Shown here in pieces: positions 51,183 through 63,202 of a stretch of 64,000 bases of DNA. The position numbers were made by a program, and so were the translations under genes. The notes beneath the pieces are model-generated. The model searched no databases. It worked only from the letters and a program-made list of their open reading frames with translations, and was not told the origin of the DNA. The DNA is from Alphaproteobacteria bacterium (lineage in GTDB: Bacteria; Pseudomonadota; Alphaproteobacteria; Micavibrionales; UBA2020): assembly GCA_016124645.1 (NCBI GenBank), contig WGNE01000017.1, forward strand, positions 1 to 64,000, given 5' to 3'. Position 1 is the first letter of the stretch, and every line of letters begins with the position of its first letter.

Positions 51183-51236
51183 AAACCCGCCTTTGCGTTT
51201 CTTTAAGTAAAAGAACCGCTTTTCGTGCGGGTTTTT
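51182..51236 (+). terminator. Likely terminator after the aldo/keto reductase gene
   Basis: AAAACCCGC and GCGGGTTTT pair across a loop that contains a smaller TTCTTT/AAAGAA hairpin, followed by Ts. Its end touches the FNR-type box at 51235, so upstream transcription is closed off just before the ATPase promoter. Confidence 0.55.
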
Positions 51237-51248
51237 GACCTTCATCAA
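51235..51248 (+). promoter_or_regulatory. FNR/Dnr-type box upstream of the N-ATPase operon
   Basis: TTGAC-CTTC-ATCAA matches the FNR consensus TTGAT-N4-ATCAA in 9 of 10 defined bases. A TATATT at 51275-51280 lies about 33 bp after its centre, close to the class II activator arrangement (box near -41.5). The first gene starts at 51354. Confidence 0.65.
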
Positions 51249-51335: not shown

Positions 51336-53140
<1,805 letters not shown>

Positions 53141-53141
53141 C

Positions 53142-53423
53142 ATGTCCGAGCAGGAAGAGCTGGAAAAACAGGTCGCGCGCCAGGCCGGGCGCATGAAGCA
53201 GGCGGAAAAAGACCGCCCGACGCTGCTGGCGCAGACCTCCTATATCGGCACGCTGGGCCTCGTCTTCGTGCTGCCGGTCATCGCCGGCGCCTATTTCGGC
53301 AACTGGCTGGATGAAAAATTCTCCGGCTATTCGGTGCGCTGGACGCTGGGGTTTTTGCTGCTGGGCGCCATCTGCGGCGGGTTCAACGTCTATTTCCTGA
53401 TCGGCAAGGGGGATAAATCATGA
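53142..53423 (+). CDS. atpQ: N-type ATPase AtpQ (AtpI-like membrane protein)
   Basis: 93 residues with a charged start (about 30 residues) and two transmembrane helices, matching the small AtpI-like protein that N-type operons carry between atpC and atpB. The G-A-Y-F-G-N-W-L-D motif is that of the AtpI/AtpQ family. AtpI proteins help assemble the c-ring. The usual partner gene atpR is absent, and this gene runs straight into atpB with a 4-bp overlap. Confidence 0.8.
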   Translation: MSEQEELEKQVARQAGRMKQAEKDRPTLLAQTSYIGTLGLVFVLPVIAGAYFGNWLDEKFSGYSVRWTLGFLLLGAICGGFNVYFLIGKGDKS

Positions 53424-54112
53424 CGGGTCAGGATACGGGCATTTCCGCGCATCTCGTCTGGCAGCTGGGGCCGGTGCATATCACCGATACGGTGGTGACG
53501 ACATGGGGCATCATGCTTTTCATGCTCGTCGCGGGCCTGCTGCTCACCCGCAACCTCAAAGAGGAGCCGGGGCCGGTGCAGACCGCGATGGAAGGCGTCG
53601 TCACCGCGATCGAGAACGCGATCAAGGCCGTGATGCCCGAAGGTTCGCGCGCGATTCTGCCCTTTATTCTTTCGCTCTGGATATTCCTCGTCGTCGCCAA
53701 CCTCGTGGGCGTCATTCCGGGGCTGCATTCGCCCACGCGCGATTTGTCCTGCACCACGGCGCTGGCCATACTCGTCTTTCTCTCCACGCATTGGTACGGC
53801 ATCCGCATCGCGGGGCTGAAGAATTACCTGCATCATTACCTCACCCCCAGCCCCATCATGCTGCCCTTCGAGATCATCAGCGAAATCTCCCGCACCGTCG
53901 CGCTCGCCGTGCGCCTGTTCGGCAACATCATGAGCATGGAGATGATCGCGCTTTTGCTGCTGATGATCGCGGGCTTTCTGGTGCCGGTGCCGATTTTGAT
54001 GCTGCACATCGTCGAGGCGCTGTTGCAGGCCTATATCTTCGGCATGCTGGCGCTTATATATATTACCGGCGGCATACAGTCGCAGCAACTCAGTCAACAA
54101 AAAGAGGAGTAG
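53420..54112 (+). CDS. atpB: N-type F-ATPase subunit a
   Basis: Membrane stator subunit forming the ion half-channels, 230 residues with five to six helices. The essential arginine lies in A-L-A-V-R-L-F-G-N-I-M, the strictly conserved subunit a motif. It overlaps atpQ by 4 bp and is followed by atpE after 7 bp. Confidence 0.93.
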   Translation: MTGQDTGISAHLVWQLGPVHITDTVVTTWGIMLFMLVAGLLLTRNLKEEPGPVQTAMEGVVTAIENAIKAVMPEGSRAILPFILSLWIFLVVANLVGVIPGLHSPTRDLSCTTALAILVFLSTHWYGIRIAGLKNYLHHYLTPSPIMLPFEIISEISRTVALAVRLFGNIMSMEMIALLLLMIAGFLVPVPILMLHIVEALLQAYIFGMLALIYITGGIQSQQLSQQKEE

Positions 54113-54119
54113 TCGCAAA

Positions 54120-54383
54120 ATGGAAATCCACGGATTCGTAACGGCCTCGACGCTGGTGGCGGCCATCGCCATCGCCATCGGCGTGCTGGGGCCGGCGCTC
54201 GCCATGGGCAAGGCCATCAGCCAGGCACTCGACTCGCTGGCGCGCCAGCCGGAGGCGGAAAAATCCATCACCCGCACGCTGTTCATCGGCCTCGCGATGA
54301 TCGAATCTCTCGCCATTTACTGTCTTGCGGTGGTGCTCATCATCCTGTTCCGCAACCCGCTGCTTGAATACATGCTGAAATAG
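54120..54383 (+). CDS. atpE: N-type F-ATPase subunit c
   Basis: Rotor-ring subunit, 87 residues, two helices joined by the A-R-Q-P-E loop. The ion-carrying carboxylate is E62 in M-I-E62-S63-L-A-I-Y67. Aligned to sodium-type c subunits, the helix-1 glutamine ligand is M29 and the threonine after E-S is L64, while E62, S63 and Y67 remain. The sodium site is thus incomplete, which favours protons. Spacing to atpF is 8 bp. Confidence 0.93.
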   Translation: MEIHGFVTASTLVAAIAIAIGVLGPALAMGKAISQALDSLARQPEAEKSITRTLFIGLAMIESLAIYCLAVVLIILFRNPLLEYMLK

Positions 54384-54391
54384 GAAAAGCC

Positions 54392-55156
54392 ATGGATTTC
54401 GATTTATCGACATTCCTGCTGGAAATGTTCAACTTCCTCGTGCTGGTCTGGATATTGAAGCGGTTCTTCTACAAGCCGGTGCGCAAGGCCATCGACCAGC
54501 GGCAGCAGGCGATCGAGAAAAGCATCGCCGACGCGAAGGGGACGCAGGCGCAGGCCGACGCGCTCAAGGCGCAGTACGAAGCGCGCCTGACCGACTGGGA
54601 AGACGAAAAGCGCGACGCGCGCCACAAGCTGCAGGAGGACATGGAGGCGGAAAAGACCCGCCAGATGGACGCGCTGAAAAAATCGCTCGACGCCGAACGC
54701 CAGCGCAGCGCCGTGCTGGACGCGCGCAAGCAGGAGGACGCCGCGCGCGAAAGCGAAGTGACCGCCCTCGCGCAGGCCGCCACTTTCGCCGCAGAGCTGC
54801 TGAAGCGCGTTTCCGGCCCCGGGCTCAACGAGAAACTGGCCGAAGCCTTCGTCGAAGACCTGAAAAACATGCCCGCCGACCAGAAAAAATCGCTGCAAAA
54901 AGTCTGCGCCGAAAACAAGACGGCCGAGGCGCTGACCGCCTATGCGCTGGAAAAGCCGCAGCAGGAGGCGGTGAAGAAAGCGCTTGCGGATCTCGCCGGG
55001 CACAAGATCGACTGCAGCTTCAAGGTGGACGAAAAAGTCATCGCGGGCTTGCGCGTCAGCATCGGCTCCTACGCCCTGCAGGCCAGCGTGAAGGACGAGT
55101 TGCAGTTCTTCGCCCGCGCCGCGCAGGCGGCCATGCCGCAGGAGGACGCGGCGTAG
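54392..55156 (+). CDS. atpF: N-type F-ATPase subunit b with C-terminal delta-like domain
   Basis: 254 residues, about 100 longer than a standard b. One membrane helix (about 5-25) and a long charged coiled coil (about 40-135) are followed by a domain resembling the C-terminal part of delta (F-K-V-D-E-K-V-I-A-G-L-R-V-S-I-G). No separate atpH is present in the operon. This joins membrane stalk and delta functions in one protein, as in other N-ATPases. atpA starts at the next base. Confidence 0.87.
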   Translation: MDFDLSTFLLEMFNFLVLVWILKRFFYKPVRKAIDQRQQAIEKSIADAKGTQAQADALKAQYEARLTDWEDEKRDARHKLQEDMEAEKTRQMDALKKSLDAERQRSAVLDARKQEDAARESEVTALAQAATFAAELLKRVSGPGLNEKLAEAFVEDLKNMPADQKKSLQKVCAENKTAEALTAYALEKPQQEAVKKALADLAGHKIDCSFKVDEKVIAGLRVSIGSYALQASVKDELQFFARAAQAAMPQEDAA

Positions 55157-56656
55157 ATGGCGAAGCTTCTGGACAGGCAGGCCGACTGGCTGAAATCCTA
55201 CAAGATGTCGCTGCGCGTGGCCGAGCAGGGGCGCGTCGCCTCCGTCGGCGACGGCATCGCATGGGTCGAAGGCCTGCCCTCCGCCGCGGTGGACGACGTG
55301 CTGAGCTTCGCCGACGGCAGCCGCGCCGTGGTCTTCGACCTCGCGGCGGAGCGCATCGGCGCGGTCATGCTGCATCAGACCGAAAACCTTTGCGCCGGCA
55401 CGCCCGCCATGCTTTCCGTCGGCCAACTCAGCATTCCCGCGGGCGACCAGATGCTGGGGCGTGTGGTCGATCCGCTGGGCTTCCCGCTCGACGGCCGCCC
55501 GCTGGAGCGCGGCACGAGCCTGCAACGGCTCGACGTTCTCTCCCCGCCCATCATCGCGCGCGACTACGTGAAGGAGCCGCTCTACAGCGGCATCCGCATC
55601 CTCGATACCATGATCCCGATGGGCAAGGGCCAGCGCCAGCTGATCATCGGCGACATGGGGCTGGGGCGCAGCTCCATCGCGCTCGATACCGTCATCAACC
55701 AGCGCGGCAAGAACGTGAACTGCGTCTATGTGCTCGTCGCGCAAAAACGCTCCACCGTCATCAACACCCTCGATCTCTTGCGCGACAACGGCGCGCTGGA
55801 ATACACCACGCTGGTGGTGGGCGAGGCGAACGCGCTGCCCGGCCTCGTCTATCTCGCCCCCTTCGCGGGCGCGGCGCTGGCCGAGGGCTGGATGGCGCAG
55901 GGCAAGGACACGCTGGTGGTCTATGACGACCTGACCGCCCATGCGGAAACCTACCGCGCGCTTTCCCTTTTGTTGCGCCGCCCGCCGGGGCGCGAGGCGT
56001 ACCCGGGCGACATCTTCTACCTCCACTCGCGCCTGCTGGAGCGCGCCACCTGCCTTTCGCGCGAGAGGGGCGGGGGCAGCATGACGGCGCTGCCCATCGT
56101 CGAGACGCGGCAGGGCGAGATCGCGGCCTATATCCCGACCAACCTCATTTCCATCACCGACGGGCAGATATATCTCGATCAGGACCTGTTCGCCTCCGGC
56201 TTCCGCCCCGCCATTGACATCGCGCGATCCGTCTCGCGCATCGGCGGCAAGGCGCAGCATGAAAGCGTGCGCAGGGAAGCGGGGCGCATGAAGCTGGATT
56301 ACCTGCAGTTCCTCGAACTCGAGGTCTTCACCCGCTTCGGCACCAAGCTGGACAAGGCGATGGAAGAGAAAATCCACCACGGCCGCGCCCTGCGCGAGGT
56401 GCTGAAGCAGGACCGGCTGCACCCGCTGCCCATCACCTGCCAGATGGCCTGGATGATTGCCTTCAACGAGCGCTTGTTCGACAAGCTGGATCCCGCCGAT
56501 ATCCCGAAGGCTCTGGCGACGCTTGAAACGAAAGCCGCCGCCAGCGAATTCACGCTCGACGACCCGCGCGAGCAATGGGTGAAGGCGGTCGAGGGCTGGC
56601 TGGCCGAATGGCTGCCGAAAGAAGACGCAAAGCCGGAAGCGGGACAAGCCGCATGA
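55157..56656 (+). CDS. atpA: N-type F-ATPase alpha subunit
   Basis: 499-residue non-catalytic nucleotide-binding subunit that supplies the arginine finger. The arginine finger motif S-V-S-R-I-G-G and the [12 protein letters not shown] stretch are intact. The P-loop reads G165-D-M-G-L-G-R171-S-S, so the invariant lysine is arginine. That should weaken nucleotide binding at the non-catalytic site. It overlaps atpG by 4 bp. Confidence 0.93.
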
Positions 56657-57501
56657 GCCGCCGCCGCGAAGTTCTGGGCCGCTTGAAGACCCTGCGCGAG
56701 ATCAGCAGCATCATGAATTCGCTGAAGAACATCTCCATGATGGAAACGCGCAAGATCACGCGGTTTTTGTCCAGCCAGCAGCAGGTGGTGGCGAATATCG
56801 AGGCCGCGGCGGGCGATTTCCTGCACTTTTATCCCGCCCTGCGCCCCGCGCCCGACCACGCCGCGCGGGTCTGGCTGCTCATCGGCTCCGAGCGCGGGTT
56901 CTGCGGCGACTTCAACCAGTCCCTGCTGGCGGATTTCGAGCGGCGCGTGCCGCCCGAAGCGCGGGAAAACGGCCATATCATCGCCGTCGGGCGCAAGCTC
57001 TGCCTTGAGGTGGAGCATAAATACCCGGACGCGGCTCTTTTCGACGGACCGGGCGTGGCGGACGAGGTGCATGGGATGCTCTCCTCCCTCGTCGGCGCGC
57101 TCGATAAAATGCGCGAGGAACGTGGTGCCTGCGCGCTGGTCATGCTGCACAAGGTGGAAGGGCAGGACGGCGCGCGCGCCACGCCCCTGCTGCCGCCTTT
57201 CGAGGGCAGGGAGACGGATGGAAAAGCGGGCGGCGCGGGTTTCGCCTTTCCGCCGCGCCTGACGCTGGAGCCGGAGGTTTTCTTCACCGAGCTGGTGCGG
57301 CACTATCTTTTCGCCGCGCTGCACGCGGGCTTTTTCACCTCGCTGATGGCCGAGCACCAGCAGCGCGTCAAGCATCTCGAAAACGCGACGCGCAGGCTGG
57401 ACGAGCAGGCGGCGGGACTGCTGCAGAAAAGCAACGTGCTGCGGCAAGAGGAAATCACCGAGGAAATCGAGGAAATCATGCTGGGATCGACCGGTCTTTA
57501 G
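56653..57501 (+). CDS. atpG: N-type F-ATPase gamma subunit
   Basis: 282-residue rotating shaft. The N-terminal helix ([16 protein letters not shown]) and C-terminal coiled-coil helix match gamma, with the [11 protein letters not shown] motif in the middle; the region between is divergent and contains a glycine-rich insert. The ATG at 56653 overlaps the atpA stop. The next gene follows after 20 bp on the same strand. Confidence 0.9.
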
Positions 57502-57521: not shown

Positions 57522-58928
57522 ATGAACGACGACATGCTGGAAAACGTCACTTTCGACGAATTGAAGATCGGCCGCAAGGCCAGCCTCACACGCACGCTGA
57601 CGCAAAAGGACATCGACCTTTTCGCCGCCGTCTCCGGCGACGTCAACCCCGCGCATATGGACCCGGAATACGCGAAGAACGACGCTTTCCACGGCGTCAT
57701 CGGCCACGGCATGTGGCCGGGCGCGCTGATCTCGAGCGTGCTGGGCACGATCCTGCCGGGGCCGGGCACGATCTACCTCGAGCAGGACATCCGCTTCAAA
57801 AAGCCTGTGCGCATCGGCGACCGGCTGACGGTTTCCGTCACCGTCGCGAAAAAACGCGAGGACAAGCCCGTCGTCACCCTCGACTGCCTCTGCGTGAACG
57901 AGAACGGCGAGACGGTGGTGGAGGGCAAGGCAGTGGTGCTGGCGCCGGTGAAGAAGGTCACGGTCATGCGCCACGCCCTGCCGGACGTCGAGATCCAGAC
58001 CCACGACTTTTACCGCGACATCATCGACCAGGCGCAGAAGATGCAGTCCGTGCGCACGGCCATCGTGCATCCGGTGCATGAAAACGTCATCCGCGCGGCG
58101 GTCGAGGCGGCGGAGGAAAACCTCATCGTGCCGGTTCTGGTCGGCCCGCGCGCCCGCATCGAGGAAGCGGCGAAGGCGGCCGGGGCCGATATTTCCGGCT
58201 GGGAGCTGGTGGAGACGGAGCACAGCGACGCCGCCGCCGTGAAAGCCGTCGAGATGGCGGCGGCGGGGGACGTTGACGCGCTGATGAAGGGCGCGCTGCA
58301 TACGGACGAGCTGATGGCCGCCGTGGCCCCGCACGAGGCGGGGCTACGCACCAAATACCGCATGAGCCACGTCTTCGTCATGTCGGTGCCGGGCTACGCC
58401 AAGCCCTTGATGGTGACGGACGCGGCGATCAACATCGCGCCCGACCTTGCGGCCAAGGCCGACATCTGCCAGAACGCCATCAACCTCTGGCGCGTGCTTT
58501 TCGGCGGGGAGCGGCAGCCCAAGGTCGCGATACTGGCCGCGACGGAAACCGTGAACGCCAAGATGCAGGTGACGGTGGATGCCGCAGCCCTGTGCAAAAT
58601 GGCCGACCGCGGGCAGATCACCGGCGGGTTGCTTGACGGCCCGCTGGCCTTCGACAACGCCATCAGCCCCGCGGCGGCGAAGGAAAAGGGCATCGTCTCC
58701 GCCGTGGCGGGCGACGCGGACATCCTGCTGGTGCCGGAAATCGAGTCGGGCAATATGCTGGCCAAGCAGCTCGCCTTCCTCGGCAACGCGGATTCGGCGG
58801 GCATCGTGCTGGGCGCGCGGGTGCCGATCATCCTGACCAGCCGGGCGGACAACCTGCGCTCGCGCCTCATGTCCTGCGCGCTGGCGGTCAAGATGGCTTC
58901 GGCGCGGCGCGAGGGGAAGGTGAAATGA
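57522..58928 (+). CDS. MaoC-like hydratase / phosphate acetyltransferase fusion
   Basis: 468 residues in two modules. Residues 1-150 form a MaoC hot-dog domain with the hydratase residues D40-x4-H45 (A-V-S-G-D-V-N-P-A-H) and G-H-G-M. Residues about 155-468 are a phosphate acetyl/butyryltransferase, interconverting acetyl-CoA (or another acyl-CoA) and acyl phosphate. The fusion suggests channelling of enoyl- or hydroxyacyl-CoA intermediates into acyl phosphates. It sits 20 bp after atpG and overlaps acetate kinase by 4 bp (ATGA). Confidence 0.9.
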   Translation: MNDDMLENVTFDELKIGRKASLTRTLTQKDIDLFAAVSGDVNPAHMDPEYAKNDAFHGVIGHGMWPGALISSVLGTILPGPGTIYLEQDIRFKKPVRIGDRLTVSVTVAKKREDKPVVTLDCLCVNENGETVVEGKAVVLAPVKKVTVMRHALPDVEIQTHDFYRDIIDQAQKMQSVRTAIVHPVHENVIRAAVEAAEENLIVPVLVGPRARIEEAAKAAGADISGWELVETEHSDAAAVKAVEMAAAGDVDALMKGALHTDELMAAVAPHEAGLRTKYRMSHVFVMSVPGYAKPLMVTDAAINIAPDLAAKADICQNAINLWRVLFGGERQPKVAILAATETVNAKMQVTVDAAALCKMADRGQITGGLLDGPLAFDNAISPAAAKEKGIVSAVAGDADILLVPEIESGNMLAKQLAFLGNADSAGIVLGARVPIILTSRADNLRSRLMSCALAVKMASARREGKVK

Positions 58929-60031
58929 GGGATTGCATCATCGTCGTCAATGCGGGTTCCTCCAGCGTCAAGTTCAGCCTTTTCTCGAAAACGGAAAAGC
59001 TGGATCTTCTCGCCACGGGCAAGGTCGCCGACATCGGCGACGCGCCGGTCTTCAGCGCGACATCCGCCGAGACGGAGCGGGAAACGCGTGAAAGCCTGCC
59101 CGCCGCCAGCACGCACGAGCAGGCGTTGCGGCATATATTGCAGTACATAGAGGCGCAAAAACACGGCGCGGTTTCCCTTGCCGCGCACCGCATCGTGCAC
59201 GGCGGCACGGTTTTCGCGAAACCGTGCGCGATCACGCCGGAGGTGCTGGAACAGTTGCGCGCGCTGGTTCCGCTGGCCCCGCTGCACCAGCCGCATAACA
59301 TCGCGGCGGTGGAGATACTGGGCAGGCTGATGCCGGACATGCCGCAAATCGCCTGTTTCGACACCGGCTTTCACGCCGGGCGCTCCGCGCTTTTCGACAG
59401 CTACGCCGTGCCGGAAAGCCTGCGGGAAAAGGGCATCCGGCGTTACGGCTTTCACGGTTTGTCTTACGAGTGGATCGCGCAGGCGCTGGCGCGCGACTAT
59501 CCCGCGCTCGCGAAGGGCAGGGTGGTCGCGGCGCATCTGGGCAACGGCGCGAGCCTTTGCGCCATGAAGGACGGCAAAAGCGTCGATACCACCATGGGCA
59601 TGACCGCGCTGGAAGGCCTGCCCATGGGCACGCGCAGCGGCAGCATCGACCCCGGCGCGGTCGTCTTCATGCTGCGCGAACTGGGCATGAGCGCGGATGA
59701 AGCGGAACACGCGCTCTATCACGATTGCGGGTTGCTGGGGCTTTCCGGCCTGTCGAACGACGTGAAGAAACTGCTGGAGGACGGCGGGGAAAGGCCGCGC
59801 TTCGCGCTCGATTATTTCAGCCTGAAAACCGCGCAGTTCATTTGCGCCATGGCGGCTTCGCTGGGCGGGCTGGAAACGCTGGTCTTCACCGGCGGCATCG
59901 GCGAGAACGCGGCGCCGGTGCGCGACGCCATCCTGCGCCGCCTGTCCTTCCTGCCCTCCTTCGAGATGCTGGTCATCCCCGCCAACGAGGAGCGGGTGAT
60001 GGCGCAGCACGCGCTGGCAAACGTAAAATAG
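58925..60031 (+). CDS. ackA: Acetate kinase
   Basis: Transfers the phosphate of acetyl phosphate to ADP, making ATP and acetate (reversible). 368 residues with the N-A-G-S-S-S-V-K-F-S start, the H-R-I-V-H-G-G segment, the catalytic D-T-G-F-H motif, H-L-G-N-G-A-S and F-T-G-G-I-G-E-N. It is about 30 residues shorter than E. coli AckA, mostly in loops. With the upstream phosphotransacetylase it forms the Pta-Ack pathway, here translationally coupled and in the same run as the N-ATPase. Confidence 0.94.
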   Translation: MRDCIIVVNAGSSSVKFSLFSKTEKLDLLATGKVADIGDAPVFSATSAETERETRESLPAASTHEQALRHILQYIEAQKHGAVSLAAHRIVHGGTVFAKPCAITPEVLEQLRALVPLAPLHQPHNIAAVEILGRLMPDMPQIACFDTGFHAGRSALFDSYAVPESLREKGIRRYGFHGLSYEWIAQALARDYPALAKGRVVAAHLGNGASLCAMKDGKSVDTTMGMTALEGLPMGTRSGSIDPGAVVFMLRELGMSADEAEHALYHDCGLLGLSGLSNDVKKLLEDGGERPRFALDYFSLKTAQFICAMAASLGGLETLVFTGGIGENAAPVRDAILRRLSFLPSFEMLVIPANEERVMAQHALANVK

Positions 60032-60033
60032 CC

Positions 60034-60690
60034 TTACCCCTGCCGGGCAGACCTTAAGATTGCGGAGACGGCATCTTCAGTTTGTGATTGGGCATTTAAA
60101 TGGAATTCGCAATATGGGGCTCTGCTTTTTTTAAGGCTTATTTTTTGGTATGGATGGCGAGTTTGATCTGCCTTCACTGATACCAAAAATTGCTTGTTTC
60201 GATTTTGGATTGTAATTGCCAAAAAGTTATTTGGGCTGGTTGTCCATTTCCTTCCCTTGCCTTCAATAAGCTTGTCCTTATGTTCTTTTCTAACAGTGCA
60301 CAGGACTTGTTGGACAAGCCTGATCATATCGTTTGGCATTTTTTCTGATATACAGGCTTCAATGAATGGTTGGTCGAGGGATGAAGCTATCCCCAAGTCT
60401 GGAGCTTCGTGTTTTTCATTTTCTGTCCTTAAAGATTGCGGCTCGCTCCCAAGGTCAACAATTACCGATTGGTGTTGCATACCAATGTTGAAGGGAAAAA
60501 TGGAGTCGACTGGGATGGAGAGCGTCTGTTTTGTAGAGTCATATTGTGGGTTATTGACGCCAATGACGCTCCTATTACCTTTTGTAAGTATGTGGCCTTT
60601 TGCAAAATGTCGCACTTCTGATTGAGTCAGACTGACAATCCATGTTCCTGGTCCGACAGGCAAAACTTGGGAAAAAGTAATCATAATCAC
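60034..60690 (-). CDS. Unknown protein in an AT-rich insert
   Basis: 218 residues, no membrane segment or signal peptide, no family recognised. The DNA is much richer in A/T than the rest of the window and its codon use differs, which suggests recent transfer. The start is uncertain: AGGAG abuts the ATG at 60696, lies six bases before the GTG at 60690 (chosen) and twelve before the ATG at 60684. A TATAAT on the minus strand (60742-60737) could be its -10 box. Its stop is 2 bp from that of ackA. Confidence 0.65.
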   Translation of the reverse strand: MIMITFSQVLPVGPGTWIVSLTQSEVRHFAKGHILTKGNRSVIGVNNPQYDSTKQTLSIPVDSIFPFNIGMQHQSVIVDLGSEPQSLRTENEKHEAPDLGIASSLDQPFIEACISEKMPNDMIRLVQQVLCTVRKEHKDKLIEGKGRKWTTSPNNFLAITIQNRNKQFLVSVKADQTRHPYQKISLKKSRAPYCEFHLNAQSQTEDAVSAILRSARQG

Positions 60691-61028
60691 GCGCATCTCC
60701 TAATTTTTCAGTAAAACTCTGAATAATAATACTGAAATTATACTGAAAGGGCAATGGCTAAACTATTTAAAATATTTCAATTATTTGAGGCGTAAGGCTT
60801 GCTAGTTTTGCGTCTTCTCAGATTTTTTTTCAGCCCTCTTAATTGTGAGCGCATTTCAGATGTTGCTTGATGTTGGTCAAGGCGAGGGTCGTGTAATACG
60901 AATAAAGCTTCGTATTAAGTATTTGTAATTCTTTAATATCCTCCCGGCGCGCATCATTTTAGCCGCATGCCGGACTTGTCTAAAAGCCGGATACGGCTAG
61001 AATACGCGCCGAAGGATATTGCATTGCG
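60691..61028. other. AT-rich intergenic region before the Crp/Fnr regulator gene
   Basis: About 335 bp with no convincing gene. The left half is very AT-rich, carries two ACTGAAA copies and the likely promoter of the leftward unknown gene. The right half holds the FNR-type box at 60867-60880 and returns to normal composition near 60950, so one border of the AT-rich insert lies here. Confidence 0.6.
60867..60880 (+). promoter_or_regulatory. FNR/Dnr-type box upstream of the Crp/Fnr gene
   Basis: TTGAT-GTTG-GTCAA, 9 of 10 consensus bases. It lies 149 bp before the regulator's start codon. TAATAC at 60894-60899 could be the -10 element, but the spacing is short. Autoregulation is the simplest reading. 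Confidence 0.55.
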
Positions 61029-61817
61029 ATGAAAGCGACCGATCACCATACCGGACAGTTTTTGAGCGGCCTGCCGTTTTTCACCCGGCTGCCGGAAGAG
61101 GATATCGACGGCTTCCTGAAGGCGGGCGCCCTGCACGCCTATGATAAAAACGACAAGCTTTTCCTGCGCGGCGATGCGGCCGACAGGTTCTTCGTCATCG
61201 TCAACGGCTGGGTCAAGCTGTTCCGTGAAACGCCCGAGGGCGAGGAGGCCGTCGTGGCGCTCTTCACCCGCGGCGACGTTTTCGGCGAGGCCGCGATTTT
61301 CGGCGGGGCGGATTACCCGTTCTCCGCCGCCGCGGTCGAGAAAAGCCGGCTGCTGGAAATTCCCGCCGCCGTTCTCAAAGACGCGGCGCGCGCCAATCCC
61401 GACATCATGCAGCGCGTCATGGCCTCCATGTCGCGCGAAATGCACCAGTTGCAGATGGAAACCGAGCACCTATCGCTCATGAGCGCGCCGCAGCGCGTGG
61501 GCTGCCTTATCCTGCAGCTTTCCTCCGGCATGATCGGCAAGGGCGGCACCTTCACCCTTCCTTACGACAAGTCGCTGGCCGCCCAGCGCCTCGGCATGAA
61601 GCCGGAAACCTTTTCGCGCGCGCTGGCGCAGCTGAAACCCGCGGGGGTCAGCGTCAGCGGCTCGGAAATCAGCGTGGAAAGCTTCGATGCCCTCATCGCC
61701 TTCAGCTGCAGCCATTGCTCTTCCCTGCCCGGCGAATGCAAGGGCAGCCGCACGGAAGGGGGCTGCGTGCCCTCCGCCGCCTGCATCGGCCACAGGGCGA
61801 AAATCAACGAGGAATGA
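61029..61817 (+). CDS. Crp/Fnr-family transcription regulator with cysteine-rich tail
   Basis: 262 residues: cyclic-nucleotide-type sensor domain (about 15-120), dimer helix, winged helix-turn-helix (about 150-222). The recognition helix contains E193-T-F-S196-R197, the E-xx-SR pattern by which FNR reads TTGA half-sites. No cysteines occur near the N-terminus, so it is not a classic [4Fe-4S] FNR. Instead a tail of about 40 residues carries C227, C230, C237, C246 and C252, which could bind a metal or cluster or sense redox state. Four matching boxes occur in this region. Confidence 0.9.
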   Translation: MKATDHHTGQFLSGLPFFTRLPEEDIDGFLKAGALHAYDKNDKLFLRGDAADRFFVIVNGWVKLFRETPEGEEAVVALFTRGDVFGEAAIFGGADYPFSAAAVEKSRLLEIPAAVLKDAARANPDIMQRVMASMSREMHQLQMETEHLSLMSAPQRVGCLILQLSSGMIGKGGTFTLPYDKSLAAQRLGMKPETFSRALAQLKPAGVSVSGSEISVESFDALIAFSCSHCSSLPGECKGSRTEGGCVPSAACIGHRAKINEE

Positions 61818-62249
61818 TCAGAACCACAGCATTTCGCTGAGCTGCTGGCGCAGCGCGAGCTCGCCGAGTTCCGGCAGGTCGTCGCGGCCGGTCTCGGCGA
61901 TGATGCGCGTATAGACGGGTTTTTCCATGCACCGGCGCAGCGCGTCCAGCATCTCCGCACTCGCCACGATGACGAGGCGGTCGAAGGCGTCGTCCTTGAC
62001 CGATTCTTCGAGCCACAGCGACAGCTTGCGCGCGAAGCCGTCGCAGTTTCCGGGGGCGTCGGGCGTAAATTCGGCGACTTTCCGCAAATGCCCCGCGCTT
62101 TTGCCGAAGACGCGCGCCTGCGCGGAGCCCGCGGCCAGAACCCAGATGCGCGGCATCCGGTTCCTGCCGGAAGGACGCTGTTTTTCATCCATCTTTTTCC
62201 GGCCTTTCAGGTTCGGGTCTTCCGGGGCGGTTTTTTCGATGAGGGGCAT
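61818..62249 (-). CDS. Host-attachment-family (PF10116-like) protein
   Basis: 143-residue soluble protein. After a basic start, the core W-V-L-A-A-G-S-A-Q-A-R-V-F-G opens a Rossmann-like fold, followed by D-R-L-V-I-V-A-S-A-E-M-L-D-A-L-R and a D-L-P-E-L-G-E-L end, as in proteins annotated as required for attachment to host cells. Their biochemical role is unclear; relatives resemble tRNA-release-factor folds. The ATG at 62249 has AAGGA at good spacing; a GTG at 62255 would abut the ribosome site. It is divergent from the FabI-like gene across two FNR-type boxes. Confidence 0.75.
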   Translation of the reverse strand: MPLIEKTAPEDPNLKGRKKMDEKQRPSGRNRMPRIWVLAAGSAQARVFGKSAGHLRKVAEFTPDAPGNCDGFARKLSLWLEESVKDDAFDRLVIVASAEMLDALRRCMEKPVYTRIIAETGRDDLPELGELALRQQLSEMLWF

Positions 62250-62312
62250 TTCCACCTTCCTTGCCGCGTTCTTTGCACAGGTTCATTTCATCACGACCGA
62301 CCCGGGAAAGCT

Positions 62313-62326
62313 TTGACCAAAGTCAA
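62313..62326 (-). promoter_or_regulatory. FNR/Dnr-type box, placed for the leftward gene
   Basis: TTGAC-CAAA-GTCAA, a perfect dyad with 8 of 10 FNR-consensus bases. On the minus strand a TGAAAT (62290-62285) begins 29.5 bp from its centre, the class II activator distance, so this box probably drives the host-attachment gene. Confidence 0.6.
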
Positions 62327-62357: not shown

Positions 62358-62371
62358 TTGACAAAAGTCAA
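62358..62371 (+). promoter_or_regulatory. FNR/Dnr-type box, placed for the rightward gene
   Basis: TTGAC-AAAA-GTCAA, 45 bp downstream of its twin. A CATCAT at 62394-62399 begins 29.5 bp after its centre, the class II activator distance, so it probably drives the FabI-like gene starting at 62444. Confidence 0.65.
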
Positions 62372-62443
62372 CGACAGGACGAATCTGGCATGCCATCATG
62401 AAAAAACATGGTTTTGTTAGCGGCGGAGAAGGGGGCGGTTGTG

Positions 62444-63202
62444 ATGATGAAGGGAAAAAAGGGGCTTGTCGTCGGCGTGGCGAACGCGCATTCCATCGCC
62501 TGGGGCTGCGCGCAGGCATTGCATGACGCGGGGGCGGAGCTGGCGCTGACCTACCTGAACGACAAGGCGAAGCCCTATGTCGCGCCGCTGGCGGCGGCGG
62601 TGGACGCGCCCGTCTTCATGCCGCTGGACGTGACGGATGCCGCGCAGTCCGCCGCGCTCTTCGCCGAAATCGACAAACGCTGGGGGCGGCTGGATTTCCT
62701 GCTGCATTCCATCGCCTTCGCGCCCAAGGACGATTTGCACGGGCGGGTGACGGATTCTTCCGGCGCGGGTTTCGCCACGGCGATGGACATTTCCTGTCAT
62801 TCCCTCGTCCGCCTGACCAAAGCGGCGGAACCGCTGATGGCGGAGGGCGGCACCGTGCTGACCATGAGTTATTACGGCTCGGAAAAAGTCGTGCCGCGCT
62901 ACGGCATCATGGGGCCGGTGAAGGCTGCGCTGGAAGCCACGGTGCGCTATCTCGCGATGGAGCTGGGACCGCAGGGCATAAGGGTCAACGCGCTCTCCCC
63001 CGGTCCGGTGAAGACCCGCGCGGCCTCGGGACTTGCCGCCTTCGACGAACTGATGGAGAGCGTGGCGCGGGAAGCGCCGCTGCACGAGCTGGTGACGATC
63101 GACCAGATCGGGGAAACGGCGGCCTTTCTGGCGTCTGACAAGGCGCGGCATATCACCGGGCAGGTGATTTACATCGACAACGGCTACAATATCCGGGGAT
63201 GA
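62444..63202 (+). CDS. Enoyl-[acyl-carrier-protein] reductase, FabI-like
   Basis: NADH-dependent short-chain reductase of the FabI branch, 252 residues. The cofactor loop G-V-A-N-A-H-S-I-A-W (11-20) and the catalytic Y153-x6-K160 with the extra tyrosines at 143-144 match FabI. It reduces the enoyl double bond in fatty acid synthesis; placed among acyl-CoA genes it may be a second, condition-specific copy. The ATG at 62444 has AAGGGGG about eight bases upstream; the longer frame from 62408 lacks a ribosome site. The next gene follows after 91 bp. Confidence 0.87.
   Translation: MMKGKKGLVVGVANAHSIAWGCAQALHDAGAELALTYLNDKAKPYVAPLAAAVDAPVFMPLDVTDAAQSAALFAEIDKRWGRLDFLLHSIAFAPKDDLHGRVTDSSGAGFATAMDISCHSLVRLTKAAEPLMAEGGTVLTMSYYGSEKVVPRYGIMGPVKAALEATVRYLAMELGPQGIRVNALSPGPVKTRAASGLAAFDELMESVAREAPLHELVTIDQIGETAAFLASDKARHITGQVIYIDNGYNIRG

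Follow-up and report, generated by a model that had tools for sequence, protein, structure and literature searches.

The 64,000-nucleotide stretch of DNA analyzed here (the window) encodes a 262-residue CRP/FNR-family regulator at positions 61029..61817 (+), identified from its open reading frame (ORF) and translation. Two Pfam domains score above cut-off, a cNMP-binding-type sensor domain (PF00027, cNMP_binding; residues 37–121, positions 61137..61391 (+), E 8.6e-22) and an HTH_Crp_2 DNA-binding domain (PF13545; residues 155–224, positions 61491..61700 (+), E 1.8e-8). AlphaFold2 gave a confident CRP/FNR fold (pLDDT 87, and 91 for a short-tailed relative) that matches CRP/FNR structures, and the domains and fold match place the protein in the CRP/FNR superfamily. 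In the model, a helix (residues 219–226) runs into a cysteine motif behind the DNA-binding domain. Confidence in the motif is moderate (pLDDT 69 for the block 231–240), which counts against a four-cysteine site, and the chain is disordered past residue 245 (pLDDT <50 for 245–261).

An N-ATPase-type F1F0 operon (beta, epsilon, AtpQ-like, a, c, b, alpha, gamma) occupies positions 51354..57501 (+); the ORFs were assigned by domain for epsilon and by reading the sequence for the other subunits. The epsilon subunit falls under every NCBIfam cut-off (45 bits vs 100 for alt_F1F0_F1_eps). Downstream of the operon are a maoC-pta fusion and ackA (57522..60031 (+); domain and NCBIfam search), genes of acetate/acyl-phosphate fermentation. 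A 220-residue ORF with no Pfam match (60034-60696 (-)) lies in a stretch markedly more AT-rich than its GC-rich neighbors and was possibly acquired. Next to the regulator is the gene for a baeRF12/Host_attach protein (61818..62255 (-); domain search), which neighborhood comparison also places beside the regulator in many relatives, and then a gene for a fabI-type enoyl-ACP reductase (62408..63202 (+); domain and NCBIfam search).

The translated regulator contains six cysteines: C159, located in the first DNA-binding-domain helix (codon 61503..61505 (+)), the tail motif C227-x2-C230-x6-C237 (61707..61739 (+)), and C246 and C252 in the disordered end of the tail (61764..61784 (+)). The original prediction described a protein that lacks N-terminal cysteines and carries C227, C230, C237, C246, C252 and H229 in its tail. 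The translation bears this out, the first cysteine being C159, which that prediction overlooked. At a cysteine rate of 1%, the chance of at least five cysteines in 36 residues is 2.9e-5 and the tail is common to homologues, so it is neither a chance occurrence nor the product of a frameshift.

Homologues were collected from contigs of the genome, the order and the class. Of the 158 family members obtained, 84 have a CxxC-x5/6/7-C motif behind the helix-turn-helix and the other 74 do not match the strict pattern. The proteins with x5 or x6 spacing have a median pairwise identity of 36%, and C159, C227, C230 and C237 occur in 60/60 of them. Just 15 columns are invariant in this set (G60, G71, E146, C159, P178, K181, A185, L188, E193, S196, R197, L202, C227, C230 and C237). 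They include E193, S196 and R197 of the recognition helix E193-T-F-S196-R197 (61605..61619 (+)), which carries the E..SR feature of canonical FNR. Four of the regulator's six cysteines are thus as fixed as the recognition helix, while the tail positions between them vary. C246 and C252 are conserved in only 28% and 23% of the 60 proteins, and we rejected the five-cysteine site on this basis. Lack of conservation of the tail cysteines had been named as the refuting result for the original prediction; C227, C230 and C237 withstand this check, and C246 and C252 fail it. The originally predicted replacement of the N-terminal FNR site by a cysteine site behind the helix-turn-helix is well supported, but the site comprises three tail cysteines plus C159 rather than five tail cysteines. 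H229 is present in 23/30 proteins of the closest type and 5/30 of the next type.

These conservation data also bear on the idea that the tail is non-sensory and only stabilizes the fold, the regulator sensing a ligand in its cNMP-type pocket. Some relatives with this recognition helix have no tail (a clade of 65 rows), so such regulators can manage without one. Against this, conservation of the tail cysteines is 100% over deep divergence while the remaining tail drifts, and we regard a purely structural tail as very unlikely.

C159 is present in 60/60 proteins of the x5 and x6 types, in 0/24 of the x7 type and in 9/74 of the rest. In the x7 sister clade (n=24), where C159 is absent, an additional conserved tail cysteine is found in 24/24 proteins. 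This exchange of C159 for an extra tail cysteine suggests a four-cysteine site. A tree of the 158 rows separates a tailed group of 93 (9 of them with odd or lost tails) from 65 tailless proteins, with weak support for the deepest split. On this tree the tail, C159 and the x7 swap have very few origins each (too few changes for an independent-pairs test), so the associations among them reflect conserved states and not many independent events.

Several family members depart from the common pattern. Two proteins keep C159 with the tail motif gone, probably through recent losses, and three have unusual cysteine-rich tails (CxxxC pattern, 5-7 cysteines), one of them without C159. The two proteins with C159 only and the cysteine-rich one that lacks it count, like the few origins on the tree, against the four-cysteine site. 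Tandem pairs of tailed regulators were seen at three loci, in several genomes of one genus.

The identity of the fourth ligand can be weighed against a second candidate position, E146-H147 at the end of the dimerization helix (codons 61464..61469 (+)). In this alternative, the three tail cysteines and E146 or H147 would ligate a [4Fe-4S] cluster, a direct counterpart of the Cys3-Asp site in B. subtilis Fnr, and C159 would be structural. In an alignment of the two proteins, C227 and C230 of B. subtilis Fnr coincide with C227 and C230 of the regulator, and D141, at the end of the dimerization helix, falls on H147. The B. subtilis sequence used was checked only against the published D141/C227/C230/C235 numbering, so this alignment is a lead. 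By the same alignment, the regulator lacks the aspartate and has H147 in its place, with the invariant E146 before it; C159 is absent from the B. subtilis sequence used. All tailed proteins (84/84), among them those of the x7 type without C159, have an acidic residue 146 (E146 in 60/60 of the x5 and x6 types), and H147 is found in 52/60 of the x5 and x6 types. E146 is also frequent in tailless relatives, however (E in 48/74), and H147 is replaced by Q or R in the other 8/60 and is mostly Q in the x7 type, a looser conservation than that of C159. We consider a ligand from E146 or H147 unlikely, although it stands ahead of the other alternatives discussed here.

The gene for the regulator lies on contig C38. 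The draft genome measures 2.85 Mb, is 91% complete and has Micavibrio and other metagenome assemblies of Alphaproteobacteria as its closest named relatives. A paralogue with 57% identity and the same tail motif is encoded on contig C12, and these two tailed proteins are the only HTH_Crp_2 regulators above cut-off in the genome. Of the two further cNMP proteins, one is an EAL fusion and the other has no recognizable helix-turn-helix. Canonical FNR was not found in the 91% complete genome, where an FNR gene on the missing stretch is possible. Across 108 genomes from the order, nothing scored as high as the cut-off of the FNR model NF008365 (228 bits; the regulator scores 70), and among 30 loci read from these genomes just one encodes the N-terminal FNR cysteines. 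The tailed regulator appears to stand in for the usual FNR oxygen sensor in this bacterial group. In a phylum-wide search, clear tailed proteins were found solely in Alphaproteobacteria among the loci read. Plasmid matches mostly covered the core only, with no characterized tailed relative among them. One x7-tailed regulator comes from an assembly labeled Gammaproteobacteria, and a mislabeled bin or a transfer is possible.

Sites matching TTGAY-N4-RTCAA occur 19 times genome-wide, compared with once for the reversed control pattern, and six of them lie on the regulator's 76 kb contig (P = 7e-6). The relaxed pattern TTGA-N6-TCAA gives just four sites in the window, all intergenic by position against the ORFs. 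By pattern search, FNR-type boxes are found in the regulator's own promoter region (TTGATGTTGGTCAA, 60867..60880), before the N-ATPase-type operon (TTGACCTTCATCAA, 51235..51248), between baeRF12/Host_attach and fabI (TTGACCAAAGTCAA, 62313..62326) and before fabI (TTGACAAAAGTCAA, 62358..62371). The predicted targets, among them the ATPase operon, baeRF12/Host_attach and fabI, thus carry the boxes of an FNR-type regulon as a sequence pattern. Outside the window, one box precedes phaC, and on contig C12 one lies between the tailed paralogue and a dienelactone-hydrolase gene. In the 448 kb surrounding 40 tailed relatives we counted 103 TTGAY-N4-RTCAA sites vs 0 control sites, boxes that other regulators there could share. 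At one further locus, on contig C8, an FNR-type box lies between a GmrSD-type endonuclease gene and one whose product looks Cas9-like from its sequence, which may be chance.

Genes of anaerobic metabolism adjoin the tailed regulators of several relatives: those for cbb3 oxidase (ccoN/ccoO) at three loci, and nrdD, nrdG and hemN at another. In the Micavibrio group the recurring neighbors encode baeRF12/Host_attach, Hsp20, universal stress and CBS-domain proteins. At two loci, L028 (L028:5098-6723) and L033, a NIT (nitrate/nitrite-sensing) domain precedes an x7-tailed CRP/FNR protein (confirmed by Pfam in L028). Near the L028 fusion are an MFS transporter (NarK-like) and a U32 protein (UbiV-like), both by sequence likeness. 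The fusion is possibly a nitrate-plus-oxygen sensor in one protein.

What the four cysteines bind could in principle differ. Four thiolates and a CxxC motif are equally typical of zinc sites, and with zinc bound the cysteines would either be structural or form a thiol-redox switch, not an iron-sulfur sensor. The nearest characterized design, Bacillus Fnr, holds a [4Fe-4S] cluster, and the FNR boxes and anaerobic neighborhoods fit an oxygen sensor, which leaves zinc rather improbable. A metal-free dithiol/disulfide switch, in which tail cysteines pair when oxidized, would resemble the control of other CRP/FNR proteins, such as FixK2, by oxidizable cysteines. Redox-active cysteines have also been discussed for PrfA (PMC12937710). 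The strict conservation of four cysteines, the CxxC-x5-7-C spacing and the exchange of C159 for a fourth tail cysteine agree better with four ligands than with a cysteine pair, and the disulfide switch is the least probable of the alternatives.

We think it probable that the protein is a CRP/FNR activator with an oxygen-labile [4Fe-4S] cluster held between C159 and C227/C230/C237 and switched off in the manner of Bacillus Fnr. The protein itself, the invariance of its four cysteines, the boxes with their enrichment and the anaerobic surroundings of relatives are computed results; cluster binding, the ligand set, the response to oxygen and activation rather than repression are what we infer. 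By analogy with the CRP/FNR family, the regulator would be a dimer. The cluster would sit between C159, on the DNA-binding domain's first helix, and the three tail cysteines, near the end of the dimerization helix (E146/H147). It would be oxygen-labile and possibly also reactive toward NO. Under anaerobic conditions, the cluster would hold the tail clamped against the DNA-binding domain, allowing binding to TTGAY-N4-RTCAA boxes. The regulator itself, the N-ATPase operon with pta/ackA downstream, baeRF12/fabI and phaC would then be switched on. Oxygen would destroy the cluster and turn the regulator off, and, as in Bacillus Fnr, the dimer need not fall apart.

A broader reading extends this model to a large alphaproteobacterial clade. 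In some of its lineages, FNR would have been replaced by sensors with a [4Fe-4S] cluster on C159 and the tail cysteines, so that the cluster would gate the DNA-binding domain directly, the fourth cysteine having shifted into the tail in the sister branch, where some members are NIT-fused. We consider this plausible, if somewhat short of probable. Oxygen sensing in Alphaproteobacteria has so far been described through FnrN/FnrL, with an N-terminal cluster, and the cluster-free FixK. If the C-terminal-cluster sensor is real, many alphaproteobacterial anaerobic regulons (cbb3 oxidase, NrdDG, HemN, N-ATPase) would have an unrecognized regulator, and FNR searches keyed on N-terminal cysteines would miss the clade. 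The clade would also offer a test of cluster control over DNA binding from inside the DNA-binding domain.

The regulator shares with canonical FNR, FnrN and FnrL the E..SR recognition helix, TTGA-type boxes and anaerobic neighbor genes. It differs in lacking their N-terminal motif and central cysteine, with no cysteine before residue 159. With the cluster-free FNR-like proteins FixK2 and DNR it shares the fold, the HTH_Crp_2 domain and a similar DNA motif, but a conserved C-terminal four-cysteine site is not described for them in the literature compared. A comparative study of Alphaproteobacteria describes two kinds only, FnrN with an N-terminal cluster and FixK types that lack cluster cysteines (PMC4999443), and a search of the open-access literature returned no description of the tailed clade. 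The closest solved structures are the structural-genomics CRP-like proteins 3fx3/3h3z of Ruegeria pomeroyi (37-38% identity). The sequence match to them stops at about residue 222, so they do not cover the tail. Two candidate assignments were set aside: FtrB, the best NCBIfam match, reaches 107 bits where the cut-off is 211, and passages on RedB of Rhodobacter capsulatus mention no cysteine cluster.

Placing a sensor behind the helix-turn-helix, which the original prediction called an uncommon design, has a precedent in the Fnr proteins of B. subtilis and B. cereus (PMC3520743; PMC12937710). In Bacillus Fnr, C227/C230/C235 and D141 ligate an oxygen-labile C-terminal [4Fe-4S] cluster (PMC3520743), which a 2026 review sets against the N-terminal cluster of Gram-negative FNR (PMC12937710). 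Like the regulator, B. subtilis and B. cereus Fnr are CRP/FNR proteins with no N-terminal cluster cysteines and a C-terminal motif of three cysteines. The Bacillus motif CxxC-x4-C appears in the regulator as CxxC-x6-C, two residues longer, and its three cysteines are found in 60/60 of the proteins with x5 or x6 spacing. The regulator further differs in its longer tail, in belonging to an alphaproteobacterial sequence group and in that its cluster is only predicted. The C-terminal cluster design itself is known from Bacillus Fnr, whereas a ligand set of C159 and three tail cysteines is undescribed for the CRP/FNR family in the literature compared. Taken together, the regulator is most likely an anaerobic [4Fe-4S] sensor-regulator, and it would be a new alphaproteobacterial version of the Bacillus Fnr design built on four cysteines.
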